DNA from: Saksenaea vasiformis B4078
Taxonomy: Eukaryota > Mucoromycota > Mucoromycetes > Mucorales > Saksenaeaceae
Length of the DNA stretch: 64,000 nt
Reading direction: 5' to 3'
Assembly: GCA_000697055.1 (NCBI GenBank)
Contig: JNDT01002331.1
Location: forward strand, 186,001-250,000
Under the pieces are notes generated by a model. The model was not told the DNA's origin and did no database searches. It saw only the letters and a program-made list of their open reading frames with translations. Positions 51,540 to 61,650 of the stretch are shown here, in pieces; the stretch's first letter is position 1; each line of letters begins with the position of its first letter. The position numbers and the translations under genes are program-made.

Positions 51540-53583
51540 TTAACCATAGCCTTGACTCCAGCCTTCCGTAAGATACCGACTGTGAGTATTTCTATAGGTG
51601 CAAAGTCTATACGTTACCTGGACTCTATCGAGAGCAAGTTTTCTCCATGCCTTCTTTCCCAAGTCTTTAGGAAGGGCTGTTCGTCTTCGCTGCTTCGCTG
51701 ATCTACCGGGCGCTTTGACTTCGCTCACTACTGGAAGCATCATTGGCGGGTGGCTGATGTTGTTTTTGTTTCTGCTGATGAGCTTATTGACATCAGCCAT
51801 CAATCTGTCAATTTGCTGTTGACCCTCGCACTGCCGGAATACATGCTGAAGCTTGATTATGCAATTCATCCATGATTCGGTGGGCTCCAAGACTGGCACT
51901 TGGCATTGCTCTATCAGCTCTGACGAGGAGTCCAAGAGCCATCTCTCAGGGATGTCATGAACTTCCAGCTGTCAATCGTGAGGTAGCTTGTGTCGACAGG
52001 GGATTCCGAACAAGAACCATGACTGACATGTGCACATGAGCTCTTTCTCGTTCGCATATAGTAGCTCATTCTCTATCGTAATCAAGGCTCGTTTAGACAC
52101 TCGACAGAAGAGCTTTTCCAATAGCTTGTTCTGATAAAGCAGGACATCGATATGTGTCGATTCCTGGATCAGCATATCGGAGTAGCCCCTCTCAAATTGC
52201 TGCGGATACCCGTGGATTCTATCGAATGCAATTGGCAGTGGTTGAACCGAGCTAATACTCTTCAATGCTCTATGTCCACTTTCGGCTCGTTGCGCGGTAG
52301 TGCAGCCAAGGTGCATCAGATGGCTGGTATGGTATCCGGCCCACTTCTCGATGCAGCAGAGCCATTCAGCTGAAAAATATGCGCAGATGTCACGCTTAGG
52401 CTTTTGATGTTGGAGCTTTCTATTTACAACTAAACTCCAGAGTTCCTGACGGTATCCATTGAATTGCTCGACTGTTTCACTGCCAATCATTTCGTGCATT
52501 TTTCCTTATCTTTGACGTCAACAAAAACACCTGAAAATGACTTTGCGATGTTGTTTATCATACGCCAAGTGCAAAGAAGTTTGGCGTTGCTGGGAAATGT
52601 GATGTCCAACGCATTCATTAATGCAACACACTTATCAGTAACGAAAACAGTACTTTTTTCGTTATTCTCAGACATGATTGCCTTTAAATGCTGCAAGAAC
52701 CACATGTACGTTTCTTGCTGCTCATTGTCAACCCACCAGAAGGCGACAGGGAATGATTTAAGCCTCATACCTCCAAGATTACTAACACCTTGAACCGCGA
52801 TTAAAGGCATTTTCGCATTATTGGTGCTACATGTTGCATCGATAACCATCACCTCGGGAAAGCGATGAGCTCTGTTGATCATTTCCTCTGATGTAAAGAA
52901 CAAATTACGCAAATAGCCATTTTCACTCTGTTTAAAATGAACGTGATAGCCTTTTGATTCCATATTCCTGATAAGTGTGGTCGCAGCATCATGCAAGTCG
53001 AATGTGGTGGTTTTTCCATGCTGGTGTTTCAAGTTGTTGATGTCATGGACAGTCAACTTGTTAACTTTGTCCTGTTCATCGGCCAAGGCGTTTTGGATGC
53101 GTCTAGTCTCGACGTGTCCTTCCATGAGGGTTGCGATCTTTTCGGCATCTTTCTCAGTTATCATAGCCTTTCTTCCTTTAGCAGATGAAGAAATGTTTGT
53201 GGTGTAAGAGGGTGATTATGATATCTTTCTTCAGCCTTTTTCGGGCTGACCAAGTAATATCTACCATCCTTTCTTTGACAAAGTCTGATCAAGAAGGGAC
53301 AGCCAACAAGAGCTGTCTTAGCTAGCCTCTGACGTGCATTCTCATCAATGTTGCGCGTATTGCGATATACATTCCCCTTGTAACATTTCAAATGGAGAAC
53401 GCCACTACCGCTGTGCTTGGTGGCTAAGGTAGAGTAGTTTCCTACAGCATAGGCATCCAAAAGTTGGCGAACTGCTTTCCTATCAGCGAAACCTTCCTCT
53501 GGGCATGGTGGCAACTGGTCGACGCAGTAAAACTTCTTCTCATCAACGATAACTTCGGTAACTGTATTAGACGTTGGATTCAT
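51540..53583 (-). pseudogene. FAR1/MULE transposase with several frame breaks
   Basis: From ATG 53,583 the first block (MNPTSNTVTEVIVDEKKFYC ... VGCPFLIRLCQRKDGRYYLV, YHNHPLTP) is a FAR1/WRKY-GCM1-type zinc DNA-binding domain. The transposase core gives the three acidic residues in VMVIDATCSTNNAKMPL, VFVTDKCVALMNAL and QRAESGHRALKS. A SWIM zinc finger follows (CTCQSWFLFGIPCRHKL). The C-terminus is basic (RSAKQRRRTALPKDLGKKAW). The frame changes near 53,165-53,200 and 52,490-52,500 (an A5 run), and TGA at 51,972-51,974 interrupts an otherwise continuous frame after the SWIM finger. It is probably inactive if the breaks are real. Confidence 0.82.
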
Positions 53584-53786
53584 GTTGCAATAATTCGAAA
53601 TTGAAGATTTGAAAAACATTTTTTTTATATGGGCGTGGTTGGCGCCAATTTATTGAAAAATAAACGATCACACGTGTAGACAGTGGTAAGCCGTGAATGG
53701 ATCGAGGGAAAAAAGTAATATAAACAAGACGATGGTGCCGGAAACTTATAAGCCGGACAGTCGATAAGCAGCCATGGAGAACAATT

Positions 53787-53811
53787 GGATCGGGTAACCT
53801 GTGTCCCTAAG
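53787..53811 (-). repeat. Right terminal inverted repeat of the MULE
   Basis: Reads ggatcgggtaacctg and ends ccctaag on the plus strand, the reverse complement of the left repeat with one base missing. Confidence 0.9.
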
Positions 53812-53840
53812 TCCGTGTACTGTTTTTTGCAGAACGTTTT

Positions 53841-53923
53841 GCGTCGCCTAAAATGATTTTTTGCGTCAATCGAGAACCGTGTGTATCGATTCTCACGCGA
53901 CGCAAAAAGTCATTTCAAGCGTC
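53841..53923. other. Strong palindrome downstream of the Fanzor 3' end (possible element end/guide-RNA region)
   Basis: Left arm 53,841-53,867 (gcgtcgcctaaaatg ... ttgcgtc) pairs with right arm 53,899-53,923 (gacgcaaaaagtcat ... gcgtc), about 25 bp with a few mismatches around a 31-base loop that itself contains tcgagaa/ttctcac-type complementarity. It lies 130-210 bases past the Fanzor stop and 30 bases from the MULE terminal repeat. Fanzor guide RNAs are generally encoded at and past the 3' end of the gene, so the place fits. The function is inference. Confidence 0.45.
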
Positions 53924-54053
53924 ACCAACATTCATTATTGAGTATCATGCCTGAACTTCTGAGGAAGGACTTACCGATGCAAACACCTAAAAGGATCGAT
54001 CAATAAAATTGCTTTAAACTTTACATATGCAATGACAAGCTTACCGTAAAAAT

Positions 54054-56911
54054 CTAAACCCTCCCGGTGGAGGGAACCGCATTCGTAGCGGCGATATTGT
54101 CCCTTGAAGGCCTGGCAAATTCAGCTGGTCTGTCTTGGCCCCTCCAGATCGATTCAGCGATCCGAAATAGGTTCTTGCTTGCCATCACATCCCGATCCCA
54201 CAACATCTTACAGGTTTTGCATTCCAAGATGCTGTGGTGGGAGATGTGATCGCCGGTTACAACTTTTTGCAGCGATCTGTTTCGGCAACTATGGCAGATC
54301 TAAACATATATTTGAGCACATCGGTGTCACCAGCATCATAATACTGACCTGCGACGAAAGGTATTCGTCAATTGTTACGACTAATAACTCTCCACGTCTT
54401 TCCCTTCTCTTCAAGGATCTCCATAGGATGTTGACCACACCTTTGCGATGCCCCTTGTAGTTACAGTTGTTATTGAACATCCCATCGCCAAATACAATCA
54501 AAGGCGTCTTCTTCCCTTCATTGGTGAACTTCGCGGGCCTCCAGTGATGAAGGCATCCCTTTCTTCTGAGCGTGCTTCGTTCGGCGGAAGTATTTGGACG
54601 AGGGACACTGTTTGCAACTCATTAGTTACTATTGGTAGTGAATTGGTTTAATTAAAATACTTGCCATTGAGCTAATGAGCTATCGCCAGCCGTACATTTC
54701 TTACTCTGTACGTCTTTACGCCGTTTACGACCTTTTTTCGTGTTCTCCTGTTTGATCGCGTGCGCTTTCTCTTTTTGCGATTGTATTTTTTTCCGCCCGA
54801 TACAAGAATGTTAACCATATCTTCTCTTGCTCTTTGCACTCCTTGATAACCGTGGAACCTTGCCACTGCTCTTCCCAGGCCGTAGAACTCGAACAAGGTG
54901 TTCATATGAAGAAAAATGCACTCCAGATAGTGGTTATGCGACTCGATGTCAGGCGTCTTTCCGGATTCCAGGGAGCTCTCAATCTCTTCGACACCTTGTT
55001 CTTTCTTTTCGGCTTGCATCCGCCTATTTCTGTTCGGTGAACCCGTATATGAATAATGTTCGTTCGTAGAACATCGTCTTATTTTATGATGCTCGCTGTT
55101 TTGACCGTACGCAGCAGTAAAAGCCTGATTAATACCAGGATCTATGGCACATGGGGGAAAATGCTCATATACATTCTCCATAGTCAGATCGTCAACTGAA
55201 AGGCTCGTGTCGATGATTGCAGCTTCCGGTTTCCGAGCTCGAGCAAACTGTATATCAACGCTATATACATCACTCAGAACAACAGCCTTGAATGCTATGC
55301 CGCTCTCGTTTGCCGAATTTTTCAGTTGTTCAAGTCTATAGAAAAAACTGCATCAGACGGTTATCTAATGAGCGCTCTTGCTTACGTCTTATAGCCGAAC
55401 TTGGAAAAGTCATACATTTGATAGAACCGAGCGAGCTTAGCATCGTAATCGTTCCACGTGTAAGACCTGTTAAGGCTGCAAGAACGTTGCAATTGATTGA
55501 CACAAATCGCCAATGCATAGATGGTGAAGGTGATAAAGAGAACAAACGAGGCAAATCTTTGCACTCTTTTCCTGCCTTCTTGTGTTCGTCTTCATGCATT
55601 CTAAGGATATAAGCCAGTACTGGCACGTACTCTCCAGGACGTACAGAGAGTCGTTCTGCAGTAGTTGGTTCTACTGGCATTAATCCTGTAAATTCGGAAC
55701 ATATGGTCTCCACGTCGGATTCAACTTCAGAGTCAATTGGCTTATCAGGAAATGGCCAGTATGGATCACCCTTAGCTAAACGTTCGTACACATAGTCCCC
55801 GGCAATTGCCTTGGCCTGACTCTTGTACAGATTCTACGTTACCAAAATAAGTAAGAAGTACCTCCCGACTTTGGGTCTTACAGGTGCAAGAGTGGCCAGC
55901 CTTCGTGAAATGTAAAACTTCACTCGGTTTTCGAAGTTCTCCACCACATTGTTGTAATACGTGGATGCTAATGTGACACATGCTGCCGATAGACTACCAC
56001 TGTATCCCGTAAAATCGCCAACGCGATACACAGCATTTGGGTGACGAGTCAATAAATCCTCCCAATGCTCGTACATCTCTCGTGGAAACTTGCTGTTGTT
56101 ATTGCTGACCTCGATTCCCATTACCAATTGACTGGCAGAACACCAAAAGTTCTGCGTATATATGTATGAAGGTATTGCGCGATCGGAATTAGCGATTATA
56201 TACGAGTTTACAACTAACTGGGCACGAAATATTACTTCGCGCAAAAATTTGGACAACCATATGATTTTCGTGCGTAGTGCTTCTTCGTGCTCTGGGCGTA
56301 CGACAGATGGAAAGGGTAATTTGCGTGTGAACGTTTCATAATTTTTTTTGAGCAAGTCGGTCTGCAATGATGTCTTTCTTCGATGCTTTATGCATGGGGC
56401 ATCGTTTAGACGATGATCGGGTATGATCGGTACCACCACAGGTTGGACATGGTTCTTCTGAAGCGTCTGTATTTGCGGTTTCTTCAGCTTTCTGATATCT
56501 TCCGCGTTTTTTTGCCTTCGACGTCTCAGCTTGTTCGGTAACAGTAAGCTTTCGTTTGAGAGCAGCTTGCAAAGAGAAAGAAGCTGATAAGAAAAAATCT
56601 TAAGTAACCGTATCTTGTATGCTTACCAGGTGCCTTTCCGTGTCTGATGTTTAAGGAACAGATTTTAAAACGCTTGTTAGCATGACCAGTAGCACCACAG
56701 TCCTTGCAAATAACTACACAGGTGTGTTTTAATAATATTAAGTCATTTACGCGCTACTCTCACCTTCTCGTGAACGTGCCAGCTCGTACTCTTTGTCAAT
56801 AGATTTCTTAATCTTTAAAAACAATACGAAATCATGCCAGGTCCATTCTAGCAAGTTTGCAAGTAGGTTGATTATTGTAACACAGCACCACTGAAAAAGA
56901 GCTTGAAGCAT
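54054..56911 (-). CDS. Fanzor (Fz1-type) RNA-guided DNA endonuclease, TnpB relative
   Basis: Seven minus-strand exons are proposed: 56911-56764, 56713-56627, 56565-55882, 55833-55386, 55335-54712, 54607-54349 and 54299-54054, about 830 residues. The N-terminus has two CCHC knuckles with identical spacing (CKDCGATGHANKRFKIC and CPTCGGTDHTRSSSKRC). RuvC-I is CAIDPGINQAFTAAYG, then IRRCSTNEHYSYTGS. RuvC-II is in TPLIVFGDGMF and VVTIDEYLSSQ. The zinc ribbon is ICHSCRNR ... CKTC, and RuvC-III is WDRDVMASKN. The catalytic D/E/D candidates are therefore all present. Fanzors are guided by an overlapping 3' RNA and are found in transposons of fungi, protists and giant viruses. Two one-base frame breaks occur in the N-terminal half: an extra A in the A8 run at 56,342-56,349, and one missing base near 55,470. 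The start codon (56,911) is the least certain point. Confidence 0.85.
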
Positions 56912-58567
56912 AATGAAAGAAGAGAAAAGGGCGTATTGAAATGTTGCCACATAAACTTGATGAACTTCAAGTACGTCAACTCGAGCCGTCACACGAAATT
57001 TCTATCAACATGATGTACGGTCAAAGTATAGGCGTATTGGTAGTTCGATCCAAAACGAGACGTCAGGAAAAATCAAAAGAAAGAAAAAATGAAGAAGAAT
57101 CACTCGACAGCTACAGTTCCATCATTGGCAATGGGCCAGCGGACAACGAAGAAGTCCTATGCAGTGGAGAAGTCTGTCCGCTTGTGATCTCATGGTTTTT
57201 GTACTTCCAAGAATGATAGGGTATCTGTGAGCTGCACAACGAGTGGATCAAGTAATTTTCAGAAATGGATTATTATTATTGCAAAAGAATACTACATCAT
57301 ACTACTGTATGCCGCACGCCGTGTTTCAAAATCTACTATGAAAAGAGTTATAATAATGACGATAAAGGTATGTTCACTGTTCATCGACGCTCATTAAGGT
57401 CATGTTTCTGGACATAGATTAAACTATCTACGGAGATCTCTTTATCAATACGTTTTACCTGAGAGGTTCGACATACAGCTACCATGTATGAACAATACCA
57501 CAGAAGATCACGTATTACAAAGTCCACAGCAGATCTATGATTTCTGAATCGATGCCGCAACGCGCAGATATGGAATTACACACACAAGTGAAATTATGGT
57601 AGCATCAATTTCTGATAGGGGCTAAATAGAGGAAATGAACAATGAACGGTCAGCTACATAATAAAGAGTCATCGGTTTCATTACCTGTTGTAGTATATTA
57701 AACCGAAGTAGTATGAATCGGACCATTCATGTTACTCTACATGTGCATGAAGGCCGCGAAGGCGACCGCAGCTTAGGTCGATGTCTATGCAAGGATTGTC
57801 ACCATGGATAAAGCCGTCGCAAGAGTCACCACCAGATTCACTGTCGCCGCAAGTGTCGCTGCGTTCACCGTTCCCAAACAGAAAGCTATAGACCCACAAA
57901 TCCCAAATACCTAGAGGAAGCCTTAGACACGTATATGGCAGAAAAATGAATAAGCCGGAGAGAGTCCAGATTAAAGGTGTCGATTCGGTTTTAATCTGAT
58001 GTGTTTTTGGAATATATCGTGTTTATCCAGCACGCCCATTACATTACATATATAGGCCAGGAAGCGTTCAGCTCGTGCAACGACGCGATCATGAACTGTC
58101 GTTGCTTCTTTTTCGTTAAGCTTTTCCTTCTTGGACACAGATGTAGTCTGAGGCTTTCTCAGAGATGTATCTATTACTGCTTCCTCAGATATAGCAACTG
58201 ATATATTGTAGTGATTGTAGCTTCCCTACTAGTTGTTAACGCCGTTTCCAGCTGGCTACAGTACCTTTCGCTAGTATATCTTCAAAGAACCACCAAAATT
58301 TCTATAGGTATGCAAGCAGAATCCGGGAATATCAAATGAGGATGCAATTCTTCGCGATATCTGATTTGTATTGTCTCCCGTCGGGCAACTTTCCTTTCAC
58401 AATGCTACGATTGGATCAGAGTTTCTTGCCTGAGGAGTTTTTCCACCTTTCTAAACATGGTACATCATTTATAGACTAGACAATTATGCGAACTAAAATC
58501 AATATGTTAATCCTTCAAGCGTTTCAAAGAATTTATTTTACACGATGAAAAGCCGGTTCCTGATCGA
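56912..58567. other. Accessory region upstream of the Fanzor gene
   Basis: About 1.65 kb. A plus-strand open frame at 56,941-57,216 (SLDSYSSIIGNGPADNEEV) has coding-like composition but no family. At about 57,765-57,945 a Cys/His-rich frame reads GRCLCKDCHH, a stop, then HCRRKCRCVHRSQ and PKYLEEALDTYMAEK. It could be a zinc-binding relic. No inverted repeat marking the other Fanzor element end was found with confidence. Confidence 0.35.
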
Positions 58568-58786
58568 CTACTTTTTTCGTTGAATAAAAGGATATCCATC
58601 AAGAACTGGGTTTTCATAGTGTTGTGCTAGCCGAGATGGCAGTTGGCCTTTTTCAACATACGAAAAAATGAGGTGAGTAGGAGACAGTTTACCGCTGCAT
58701 CGAATACGAGGCTCTCTTTGAATACCATATAATAGTTTTCCTTCGTTCTCGTTGTGAATTTTAATATTAGTACTTTGCAATTCCAA
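58568..58786 (-). CDS. Short hypothetical ORF (72 codons), uncertain
   Basis: The frame from 58,786 reads MELQSTNIKIHNENEGKLLY, then IQREPRIRCSGKLSPTHLIF and LPSRLAQHYENPVLDGYPFI, ending QRKK. The composition looks coding and not low complexity, but I do not recognise a family. No splice partner or poly-A signal was confirmed. It may be a single exon or relic. Confidence 0.3.
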   Translation of the reverse strand: MELQSTNIKIHNENEGKLLYGIQREPRIRCSGKLSPTHLIFSYVEKGQLPSRLAQHYENPVLDGYPFIQRKK

Positions 58787-59164
58787 TGCTTATTTCGCTT
58801 ATTTAATTCTGCTTATTTTGCTGTTCTCTCGCCATCGTTTACTATACTCGAGTACCTTTGCTGTTTGTCGTGGCGTATATATACTGTATACACGTGTAGA
58901 GTCGTCTTACAACTTCGGTCGCTGCAGCGTGAATGATATCAGCTAAGGTAAACTTTCCATCATCTTGGTCGGAGGGTCATATTCATTATCGTACGCATGC
59001 ATGTAGATAATGGAACATTTCTAAGTCTTCCTCCGTCATAGCACGATCAAATGAATGATAAAGCCTGAAAGGTGCCACTCTACAACGGCTGTTGCAAAAT
59101 TCATTCCCAGACAACGCAAATTAATGCCATTGGCCAGCGCAAAAAGGCTTTTCAATTAACGTAA

Positions 59165-61650
59165 AATTACGCGCAAAATACTATAACCTGTGGTCCCCTA
59201 AGAGCACTGGATCGCAAACGCAGTATTCTTTGCATCGTTCGTGATCCCAGCTTCAAAGTCCGTCTTAGTGACTGTGTCGGGAAAGTTTTTCATGCCATTT
59301 TGGTTAAACTATTTGCCGAATACTGCACAATTCGAGAAAAAAGCCGCGAACACCCAGAAATGGCGTCAATGCATAATTGGATTCATGCTGTAACGAACGA
59401 AGTAGGAGGGTGTGATGAGCTTGTCTCGCGGATAGTTGGAAAGATCCATGCATTACATTTATATGCAATGAACGGTCAGAATCTGTCAAAGTTGCCGCGT
59501 TCAAAGGGTGTCATTGTCCACGGCAAACCAGGAACGGGTAAAACACAACTCGCGGTGTCAATAGCTAGTATGTATAAACCGAGGTGGCCGAGTGAAAGAG
59601 AAAAGTGCTAAACCTCTACATAAGAGCACTCACAGTTGCCGTATTTTATAATGAACGGCTCCGACGTCTTTCAGACAGGTAATAGCATCGAGGCGAAATC
59701 CAAGACTTATAAAAACATGTGGATTTAGAGGAGGGAGCAAGTGAATCAACATTAAAGTCTTTCTTCGAGGATGCACGGAAGCAAAAATTATCTGTCGTCG
59801 TGTTGGATGACATCGACATGCTTGCCAGCCACAGCAAGAAAGAAGGCGTTGACGTTCGTATAGGCTCCATGCTGCTATCTATACTGGATAACATGAACAA
59901 CCTTAATGCGGAGCATTTTGTATTTGTTATTGGTAGGGGGCGCTTGGGAGAGATCGTGGACTAAGCTTTAAGGACGTTACTTCAGGTCTTTCTAGTAGAA
60001 TGCATGCTATTGATCCGTGTTTTCTATCCTCGGGAAGACTGGATTATCACGAAGAACTCCTGATCAAATCACCAAGCCAGCGTCAAGCTATTTTAAATAT
60101 ATTAGTGCAACGTAAAGCATGTTATGACTGAAATGCTGTAGTTGACAGAAAGTTTCTTTAGGGTTACCGTTTCAGTCAGATGAGCAACGCAACGACATAA
60201 TTGAACGAGTAGCCAAAAAAACGCATGGATTTGTACCAAGTGATCTGCAGAGTCTGTGTGCTCAAGTTGTGTTACTGCTCGTGAAAGAAGAGACGGAGCT
60301 GGGAAAGCAGAATGTTGAAAAGGTACAATCCCTGTGTTCATCATCCATGCAATTAATTCTCCCTCTGGTTAGCCGGTGTATGTTGAATGGCATCATTTTG
60401 AGCGATCGCTAGGTGTAGTGAGACCCTCAAATCTGAATGAGTACGCAACAAAGGTTAGCAACTATTTACATAGGTGCAATACTCCTAACATGTATTTGTA
60501 GGTGCCTTCAGTCAGTTTTTCCGATGTCTACGGCATGAGTGACGTTATCGACGAGATCAAGGTAATCATATCATTGAAGATTTATTATCTCATTCGTTAT
60601 AGGCATCTATAATTCATCCATTCCATCATCCAGAGCATTATCGCCAGTTAGGAATTGCTCCTCCAAGAGGTATCTTGCTATACGGTCCGCCCGGTGTAGG
60701 AAAAACAATGCTTTGCTGTGCTCTTGCATCAGAAGCTGGAGTCAATTTCATGCTGGTTGAGGTAGCACCACAAACCGTTTTTCTAACTCTTCGCTGACGC
60801 CGCTTCCAGAGTTCTCAAGTGCGTTCAAAAGTCGTAGGAGAGTCTGAACAAAATATCGCCAAACTATTTTCGCAAGCACGCGCCAACTCTCCGTGTATCT
60901 TGTTTATCGATCAGGTGAGAAGAGGTGCAGCTACCAAAGTCCCTGCTTACAAGGATAGATTGATATGTTGCTACCAAAACGAGGAACGAATATCACTTCA
61001 GAAAATGCAAGTGATAGGATCGTTACTGGCTTTCTTACAGGTGGGAAAGTGCTAGTATGAATGAGATTCTAACAAAAGGTTCCAGAGATGGATGGGTTAA
61101 TGACAAAGAGTGTGGATAATGCGCATATCGATGTCCTCGTGGTTGCAGGTACAGAATAAGATATTATAGGCTTATATTCCTCACAGGTATTATTATTATC
61201 AGCTACCAGTCGGATGGGCAGTATGGATCCAGCTGTACTGCGACCTGGCCGATTTGATGAACGGATTCACATTGCTCTGCCAGATGAACATGTAAGCAAA
61301 TGAAGTCCGTCTCGCTTATGATCTAACAACGGAATAGAAACGTATGGCTATTATACAAGGCCTATGCAAAAAGATGCCCATTGTTATGAGCGAAGAGGAG
61401 CGTATTAAACTTGCACAAAGTACTGTAGGTTGGTCAGGTATGTTCATCATTGGGAAGCTTCAGCTGTCAATTCATCTCTTCTTTCTAGGTGCTGAATTAG
61501 ATAATTTATTTCGCGAGGCTGCTATGGTCAGCTTACGTGAGAATGTACACACAGAGAAGGTAAAGGGATGCTGACAAAAGATGCTGTTTATTCATACAAA
61601 CAAATTAGATTACGTTGGATCATATCGAAACTGCAAAACACCGTCGATAA
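59165..61650 (+). CDS. Tandem AAA+ ATPase, AFG2/SPATA5L1-like (N-terminal exon(s) unresolved)
   Basis: Fifteen exons join in phase: up to 59567, 59625-59678, 59729-59932, 59986-60111, 60162-60322, 60373-60453, 60502-60561, 60603-60761, 60810-60914, 60959-61040, 61086-61148, 61203-61291, 61338-61437, 61489-61559 and 61609-61650. The first AAA module has Walker [12 protein letters not shown] and Walker [11 protein letters not shown], then SSRMHAIDP. The second has [17 protein letters not shown], Walker [12 protein letters not shown], Walker B CILFIDQIDML, sensor-1 [13 protein letters not shown], arginine finger [10 protein letters not shown] and [15 protein letters not shown]. The type II layout and D2 sequence fit the CDC48 superfamily near AFG2/SPATA5L1, which act in pre-60S maturation. 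Both Walker B motifs lack the usual Glu (D-D, D-Q). The 5' end is unclear: the frame is open from 59,165. An ATG at 58,933 (MISAK, then gtaaac) after a TATA box at about 58,875 could be exon 1. Confidence 0.8.
59182..59202 (+). repeat. MULE-terminal-repeat-like sequence at the 5' end of the AAA gene
   Basis: tataacctgtggtcccctaa resembles the right MULE repeat (gggtaacctgtg-tccctaag) in the same orientation, with a few differences. It may be a solo end or a footprint of a related element. Confidence 0.45.

Follow-up and report, generated by a model that had tools for sequence, protein, structure and literature searches.

The 64,000-nucleotide stretch of Saksenaea vasiformis B4078 DNA analysed here (the window) carries a Fanzor-like gene on its minus strand, between positions 54054 and 56911, close to the transposase gene of a MULE. 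The questions raised by this locus are what the gene is, whether it can still be functional and which element brought it to its present place. We consider it most probable (about 0.85) that it is a Fanzor1 gene with a broken reading frame, that it lies in a 5.36-kb transposon which bears the marks of a Tc1/mariner element and whose insertion site is a TA in the end of the MULE, and that a block of DNA at the 3' end of the gene likely encoded a guide RNA. Below, C numbers designate contigs and L numbers fetched stretches of DNA, L030, L031 and L032 corresponding to C391, C628 and C277, respectively.

Identity of the gene

A preliminary description of this DNA had proposed a Fanzor with RuvC-I, RuvC-II, zinc-ribbon and RuvC-III motifs, Fanzors being related to TnpB and Cas12, enzymes that cut DNA under the guidance of an RNA. 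All of them are indeed encoded by exon-like pieces on the minus strand of 54054-56911 (AIDPGIN for RuvC-I, TIDEYLSSQ, CHSC...CKTC and DRDVMASKN), and the profile searches support the assignment. In a Pfam profile search, the joined last two exon pieces reached 38.3 bits for the zinc ribbon Cas12f1-like_TNB (cut-off 26.3 bits), while the PDB sequence search with the C-terminal half gave as best match SpuFz1, the Fanzor of Spizellomyces punctatus (8gkh; E 6.7e-5), and also GtFz1, the Fanzor1 of Guillardia theta (9cer; E 1e-4), both of which outrank the TnpB-like L79 and TnpB as closest relatives. A profile built from the window protein and nine relatives matched SpuFz1 with an E value of 8e-20, the LaTranC proteins being found at 0.003-0.004.

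The active-site layout of the window protein is D-P-G, E-x6-CxxC-x21-CxxC-x6-D, with R-D after the C4 ribbon. The D-P-G of RuvC-I stands in AIDPGIN, and the RuvC-II glutamate is placed six residues ahead of the zinc ribbon (E-YLSSQI-CHSC), within TIDEYLSSQ, in agreement with the rearranged glutamate of an Fz1 suggested beforehand. This corresponds to the Fanzor layout (D-P-G, repositioned E, C4 ribbon, D) described in PMC10711439, the ribbon spacing of 21 residues being larger than the 12-18 allowed by the search pattern of that paper. The Fanzor1 motif of PMC3627910, D-X(125,275)-[TS][TS]-X-X-C4 zinc ribbon-X(5,50)-RD, is found as well: CHSC-x21-CKTC is followed by RD, and about 243 residues separate D from SS, a distance that varies with the exon 5-6 border chosen. 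D, E, D and the zinc-ribbon residues are all retained in the window copy, so that the survival of the catalytic residues, already remarked upon, is confirmed. The N-terminal part, with zinc-knuckle-like units, matched zf-CCHC_6 at 24.3 bits (cut-off 22). Judged by these similarities, the minus-strand gene at 54054-56911 is a Fanzor1.

Two Mucorales proteins, P0001 of Rhizopus delemar and P0003 of Mucor saturninus, are each 31% identical to the window protein in the multiple alignment. The fold of P0003, predicted from a 36-sequence alignment (mean pLDDT 67, with 258 of the 821 residues below 50), had seven PDB matches at E <= 0.001, and all seven are Fanzors; the prediction made for the relative without an alignment (mean pLDDT 33) was not usable.

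As for the host, the fungal genome recognised in the preliminary description agrees with the Cdc20 gene, whose best match comes from Apophysomyces ossiformis, order Mucorales (75% over 92% of the query vs. 52% for the second-ranked match). Genome-wide, E <= 1e-3 was reached by at least 137 zinc-ribbon matches, with 150 of the 388 candidates scored and the window's own copy absent from the matches listed; by this measure, Fanzor-type genes are therefore abundant in the genome.

A conserved block downstream of the coding region

A block of 98 nt located at and past the stop codon (53966..54063, minus strand) is shared with a sister Fanzor family. In two copies of that family, on C569 and C561, 77/98 and 80/98 positions are identical to the window, while the adjoining exon 7 has 144/236 and 152/236, the block being the more conserved in both cases (Fisher p 0.002 each). 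Since it is more conserved than the adjoining exon, it is likely the scaffold of a guide RNA (omegaRNA). The block of about 98 nt occurs at 19 places in the genome, nine in the window family (window included) and ten in the sister family, the latter 95-100% alike within the block; part of it is deleted in C391. Concerning the terminal 51 nt, 43/51 and 41/51 agree in the C569 and C561 comparison.

The block might alternatively be a splice or RNA-processing signal of the 3'-UTR, or a transposase binding site, a reading that we regard as the less probable one, with a real but minor chance of being right. It would account for the splice-site-like motifs GGTAAG and TTTTAG-GTG within the block, and for the lack of covarying structure, as 0 of the 14 predicted pairs change on both sides. 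It accounts less well for the constant distance to the zinc ribbon: the block lies 107-110 bp past the zinc-ribbon match, on the same strand, at 6/6 of the sister places present in both the block and ribbon tables (six of the ten; C561 was placed by alignment, and C317, C380 and C599 are not included). Also against it, the distance from the block to the transposon end varies between the two families, and the guide RNA of SpuFz1 occupies the same place (PMC10432273).

The folding energy of the block is not unusual (z -0.30). Beyond it, a long imperfect palindrome (inverted repeat I1; 53838..53928, minus strand) is predicted to fold into a hairpin with which the transcript would end on its 3' side, and the fold of 53818-53950 has a z of -7.48; this terminal hairpin is absent from the sister copies C569 and C561. 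No Rfam family was found at the gathering threshold; below it, the hairpin gave just weak matches to microRNA precursors, and L074 a single weak match.

Exons, frame breaks and selection

Seven exon-like pieces were drawn on the minus strand, from 56911 to 54054, separated by six GT...AG gaps of 43-53 nt. The least certain is a possible first exon (56764..56911), opening with an ATG at 56911 and also present in C633, C391 and C628. The first zinc-knuckle-like unit (CKDCGATGH...C) is encoded by exon 2 (56627..56713), and the second one, together with the start of the N-terminal half, by exon 3 (55882..56583). Exon 4 (55386..55833) is followed by exon 5 (54661..55335, an outer bound with a provisional 3' border), which holds the RuvC-I D in AIDPGIN (GCC codon at 55148). 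Finally, exon 6 (54349..54607, 5' border provisional) carries the repositioned RuvC-II glutamate in TIDEYLSSQ, and exon 7 (54054..54299) the CHSC...CKTC zinc ribbon, the RuvC-III RD and the stop.

These exons had been described as being in phase, which the sister copies do not bear out: relative to them, the window coding sequence has three single-base indels, near 56.35 kb in exon 3 (compared with C633, C391 and C628), near 55.45 kb in exon 4 and near 54.74 kb in exon 5 (both compared with C277 and C382 in addition). As assembled, those in exons 3 and 4 interrupt the reading frame. All three are located in or beside runs of A and could hence be assembly errors. A mechanical scan was made for GT...AG gaps restoring an open frame around each indel. 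Nine were found around the first one, and 9/9 remove or misread conserved protein; of the 15 around the second one, the 12 seen all do so (12/12). Around the third indel, eight alternative splice choices with an open frame cost little, so this indel might be spliced around and need not matter.

The five sister copies carry indels of their own, some outside A runs, and in-frame stops occur in four of the five (two in C633, one in C628, one in C277 and three in C382, vs. none in C391). Moreover, C382 has lost the first D (RuvC-I) and C628 one cysteine of the ribbon. The window copy has no in-frame stop in the codons compared. With its frame broken, it probably makes no working enzyme any longer.

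Over 754 codons, the dN/dS of the window copy is 0.20 vs. C391 and 0.21 vs. C628, third positions accounting for 132 of the 223 and 126 of the 225 changes, respectively. Fourteen of the 15 pairs computed have values of 0.20-0.38, from which the Fanzor family most likely made a constrained protein for a long time. The remaining pair, the window copy and its closest sister C633, has a dN/dS of 0.85; taking both copies together, first, second and third codon positions differ at 20, 25 and 15 places, and protein constraint was not seen in this youngest pair.

That the gene is nevertheless intact and active, its breaks being assembly errors or spliced around, seems improbable to us. The A runs at the three indels, the absence of stops in the compared codons, the full set of catalytic residues and the open GT...AG choices available around every indel would all suit such a gene. 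However, the dN/dS of 0.85 and the distribution of changes over codon positions vs. C633 fit decay, the splice choices seen around the first two indels sacrifice or misread conserved protein, and the sisters have their own indels and, in four of them, stops. The preliminary description had set the gene apart from neighbouring relics; given its frame breaks, its missing transposase core (see below) and its dN/dS vs. C633, it is a relic itself.

Bounds of the element and its insertion site

The gene belongs to a decayed Tc1/mariner-type element of 5,364 bp (53820..59183, genes on the minus strand), delimited by the bounds of the repeat and by an empty site. The latter is provided by the MULE. 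The MULE transposase gene of the window (52487..53649, minus strand) has a MULE domain above the cut-off (69.8 bits at 52487-53215) and a FAR1 domain below it. A second MULE copy, 89% alike, is present on the same contig about 60 kb beyond the window (C602:310696-312935), and a further copy on C538. In the second copy (L070), the MULE end reads ...GTCCGTG-TA-ACCTGTGG... with a single TA, vs. ...GTCCGTG-TA-[element]-TA-ACCTGTGG... in the window, where the TA stands on both sides of the element (53818..53819 and 59184..59185). The comparison of the empty and filled sites thus fixes the element at 53820-59183 and its target duplication as TA, as in Tc1/mariner (IS630-Tc1-mariner) elements. The Fanzor gene had been placed next to a MULE; it does adjoin one, but as part of an element whose TA target lies in the terminal region of that MULE.

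Terminal inverted repeats, also a Tc1/mariner character, are present and imperfect. The left one (53820..53868) is CTGTTTTTTGC...TTTTGCGTC and the right one (59138..59183) is ...ACGTAAAATTACGCGCAAAA plus 5 nt. Among ten left-end rows, eight begin with TACTG or TACTT (the exceptions being C398 and C28), and in the relatives C102 and C606 the right end is TACAGT.

A 19-bp direct repeat surrounding the window element, whose score was reached by 2/500 shuffles, was considered as a long target duplication and rejected: the empty copy has it too, and it represents a tandem repeat of the MULE end that is older than the insertion.

Direct repeats longer than TA flank the copies on C628 (8 bp; score reached by 116/500 shuffles) and C277 (11 bp; 8/500). 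They replace the last bases of the right end, bases that in L031 and L032 are substituted by a copy of the left flank (TGGAG-TA and GAGTGTGTC-TA, respectively); otherwise these copies belong to a TA-type family. No outstanding flank repeat was found in C391, C633, C382 and C651, where the score was reached by 373 to 500 of 500 shuffles. C382 has CA instead of TA at its right end, and that of C651 is cut short. The repeats of C277 and C628 had raised the possibility of a MULE origin, which the empty site rejects for the window.

MULE or MuDr elements have target duplications of 8-11 bp and their MULE transposase inside the ends. The MuDr duplication is given as 9 bp in PMC3627910, where some Mucorales Fanzor1 genes are reported with 9-bp duplications and MuDr-like ends, and the window Fanzor could likewise be thought a cargo of the MULE, whose reading frame starts some 170 bp beyond the left end of the element. 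We find this very improbable: at the window's site the duplication is TA alone and the MULE gene lies outside the element, the second MULE copy is uninterrupted at the insertion site, where it has one TA and lacks a Fanzor, the other aligned copies have different left flanks, and the transposase piece found inside the family is a DDE_3.

Copies of the element and traces of a transposase

A search of the 38.7-Mb genome (666 contigs) with the DNA of the Fanzor gene gave 30 matches, those of at least 119 bits being distributed over 15 contigs, and the 5.36-kb repeat is present on 15 contigs, mostly as pieces. Four matches are full-length: the window, C633 (97%), and C391 and C628 (89%). In 13 stretches fetched around relatives, similarity never extended left of 53815 or right of 59181, and the left flanks differ among ten aligned rows. 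Forms with internal deletions (C277, C382 and C651) keep the 3' end of the Fanzor gene and the right end.

C391 and C628 hold an extra 575 and 556 bp, respectively, near 57.8-58.0 kb of the window (57812..58014). This extra DNA includes the C-terminal part of a DDE_3 transposase, at 36.8 bits in L030 and 42.9 bits in L031 (cut-off 28.6), on the same strand as the Fanzor gene and upstream of it. Within the Fanzor family, DDE_3 was seen just in these two copies, as pieces of about 120 residues; genome-wide, 105 matches to the DDE_3 piece reach E <= 1e-3, the majority belonging to other elements. The window itself retains a putative remnant of the upstream part of the transposase (57971..58225, minus strand), which has no DDE_3 match by itself, 58014-58287 aligning with the L030 stretch that borders the DDE_3 piece. 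Since the short form lacking the transposase piece is common to the window, C633, C651 and C655, the loss most likely came before these copies spread, and this lineage most likely moved in trans. From the TA at the empty and filled sites and the DDE_3 pieces of the two sisters, the window element is best read as a decayed element of Tc1/mariner type whose insertion target was a MULE.

The least probable reading of all, a host-adapted (domesticated) gene as proposed in the preliminary description, could draw on the purifying selection between lineages, but it is opposed by the many copies with differing flanks, transposon ends and decay that make up this multi-copy transposon, by the pair of the window copy and C633, in which no constraint was seen, and by the empty site, which contradicts it. 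The other proposal, a recently mobile gene, is not borne out either.

Several related sequences were noted besides the window family. At eight places (C637, C624, C598, C540, C488, C459, C438 and C121) the initial 48 nt of the left end recur with 96% identity, C637 also having a diverged 3' block, and at C436 with 94%; these probably represent a related family. L037, L038 and L040 resemble the window family at about 86-91% in the right end and in all or parts of 55097-55794, the DNA for the Fanzor C-terminus in L037 and L038 being just 64-71% alike. They are perhaps mosaic elements formed by recombination. In L049 (C269), Fanzor pieces lie near two DDE_3 pieces with the transposase on the opposite strand, unlike the window family.

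Comparison with known systems and a possible mechanism

Fanzor1 genes have been described in the Tc/mariner elements PGv-1, PUl-1, PUl-4 and HMa-1 (Bao and Jurka 2013, PMC3627910), and the window copy is a relic of this already described class. The shared characters are a mariner-type transposase or ends, a TA duplication and the existence of elements without transposase. The mariner Fanzor1 prefixes in PMC3627910 point to a virus, Hydra and others, and its fungal Fanzor1 cases are MuDr-like or unclassified. In contrast, the window element is of Tc1/mariner type and its host is a fungus of the Mucorales. We take the prefixes PUl and PCa to stand for oomycetes and the like. In the parts of PMC3627910, PMC10432273, PMC10711439 and PMC11423790 covered here, no fungal mariner Fanzor1 is named.

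SpuFz1 (8gkh) is, by sequence, the best relative of known structure and shares the D/E/D residues and the zinc ribbon. It also resembles the window family in having a conserved non-coding block between the stop and the 3' inverted repeat, and in being multi-copy with ORF-less relatives (PMC10432273), comparable to C277, C382 and C651. It differs in that no transposase was found between the repeats of Spu-1 (PMC10432273), while two sisters of the window copy have a DDE_3 piece, and in that predicted introns split the window gene. PpFz1 of Parasitella parasitica (9cf0, 9cf1) is, like the window gene, a Mucorales Fanzor1, and it is active and of solved structure; its TAM is reported as ATN and its RuvC insertion binds cyclophilin (PMC11423790). 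It had no sequence match with the queries used and was found solely via the predicted fold of P0003.

As to the mechanism, cut-and-paste movement at TA would have been the work of the transposase, which would have acted in trans on the lineage without one (the window copy, C633, C651 and C655). The RNA bound by the Fanzor would combine the 3' block and the terminal repeat, and the 14-15 nt of flanking DNA nearest the element would provide the guide; the nuclease would then cut the emptied or sister TA site, and repair would copy the element back. If the RNA of the window copy is of any use, it could be so solely to enzymes encoded elsewhere in the family. The guide of SpuFz1 measures 14-15 nt (PMC10432273), and the predicted 15-nt guide of the window is the flank just outside the element (53803..53817, minus strand). 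This putative guide, CACGGACTTAGGGAC, and the unoccupied MULE site at C602:312935 agree over exactly 15 nt adjoining the TA. Any insertion into a repeat would be expected to give such a match, which is no proof of function but names that site as a candidate target.

On a more speculative note, the cut-and-paste mariner transposase and the RNA-guided Fanzor might form one homing system, in which the duplicated TA doubles as the nuclease motif and the flank as the guide, every empty TA site of the same repeat being cut and the element copied in. We hold this idea to be doubtful; were it true, the window locus would already bring together donor, guide and a matching unoccupied target (15/15 nt) on one contig. 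The notion of cutting the empty site and copying back is open to direct test in this genome, since in two sisters a DDE_3 piece and a Fanzor occur within a single element, the 3' non-coding block is common to two related families, and one contig carries a target in both its occupied and its unoccupied state.

Neighbouring repeats

The window MULE contains a unit of about 90 bp (53619-53709) that the second MULE copy lacks. The unit is SINE- or MITE-like, with an A run at its end when read on the minus strand. Similar units are located about 230 bp past zinc-ribbon matches in C29, C33, C74 and C428, matches that have equal scores and belong to another Fanzor family; in C33, the unit is flanked by a 14-bp direct repeat. 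On the other side, just past the right end of the element, pieces of an AAA-ATPase (PF00004) are found at 59713-61055.
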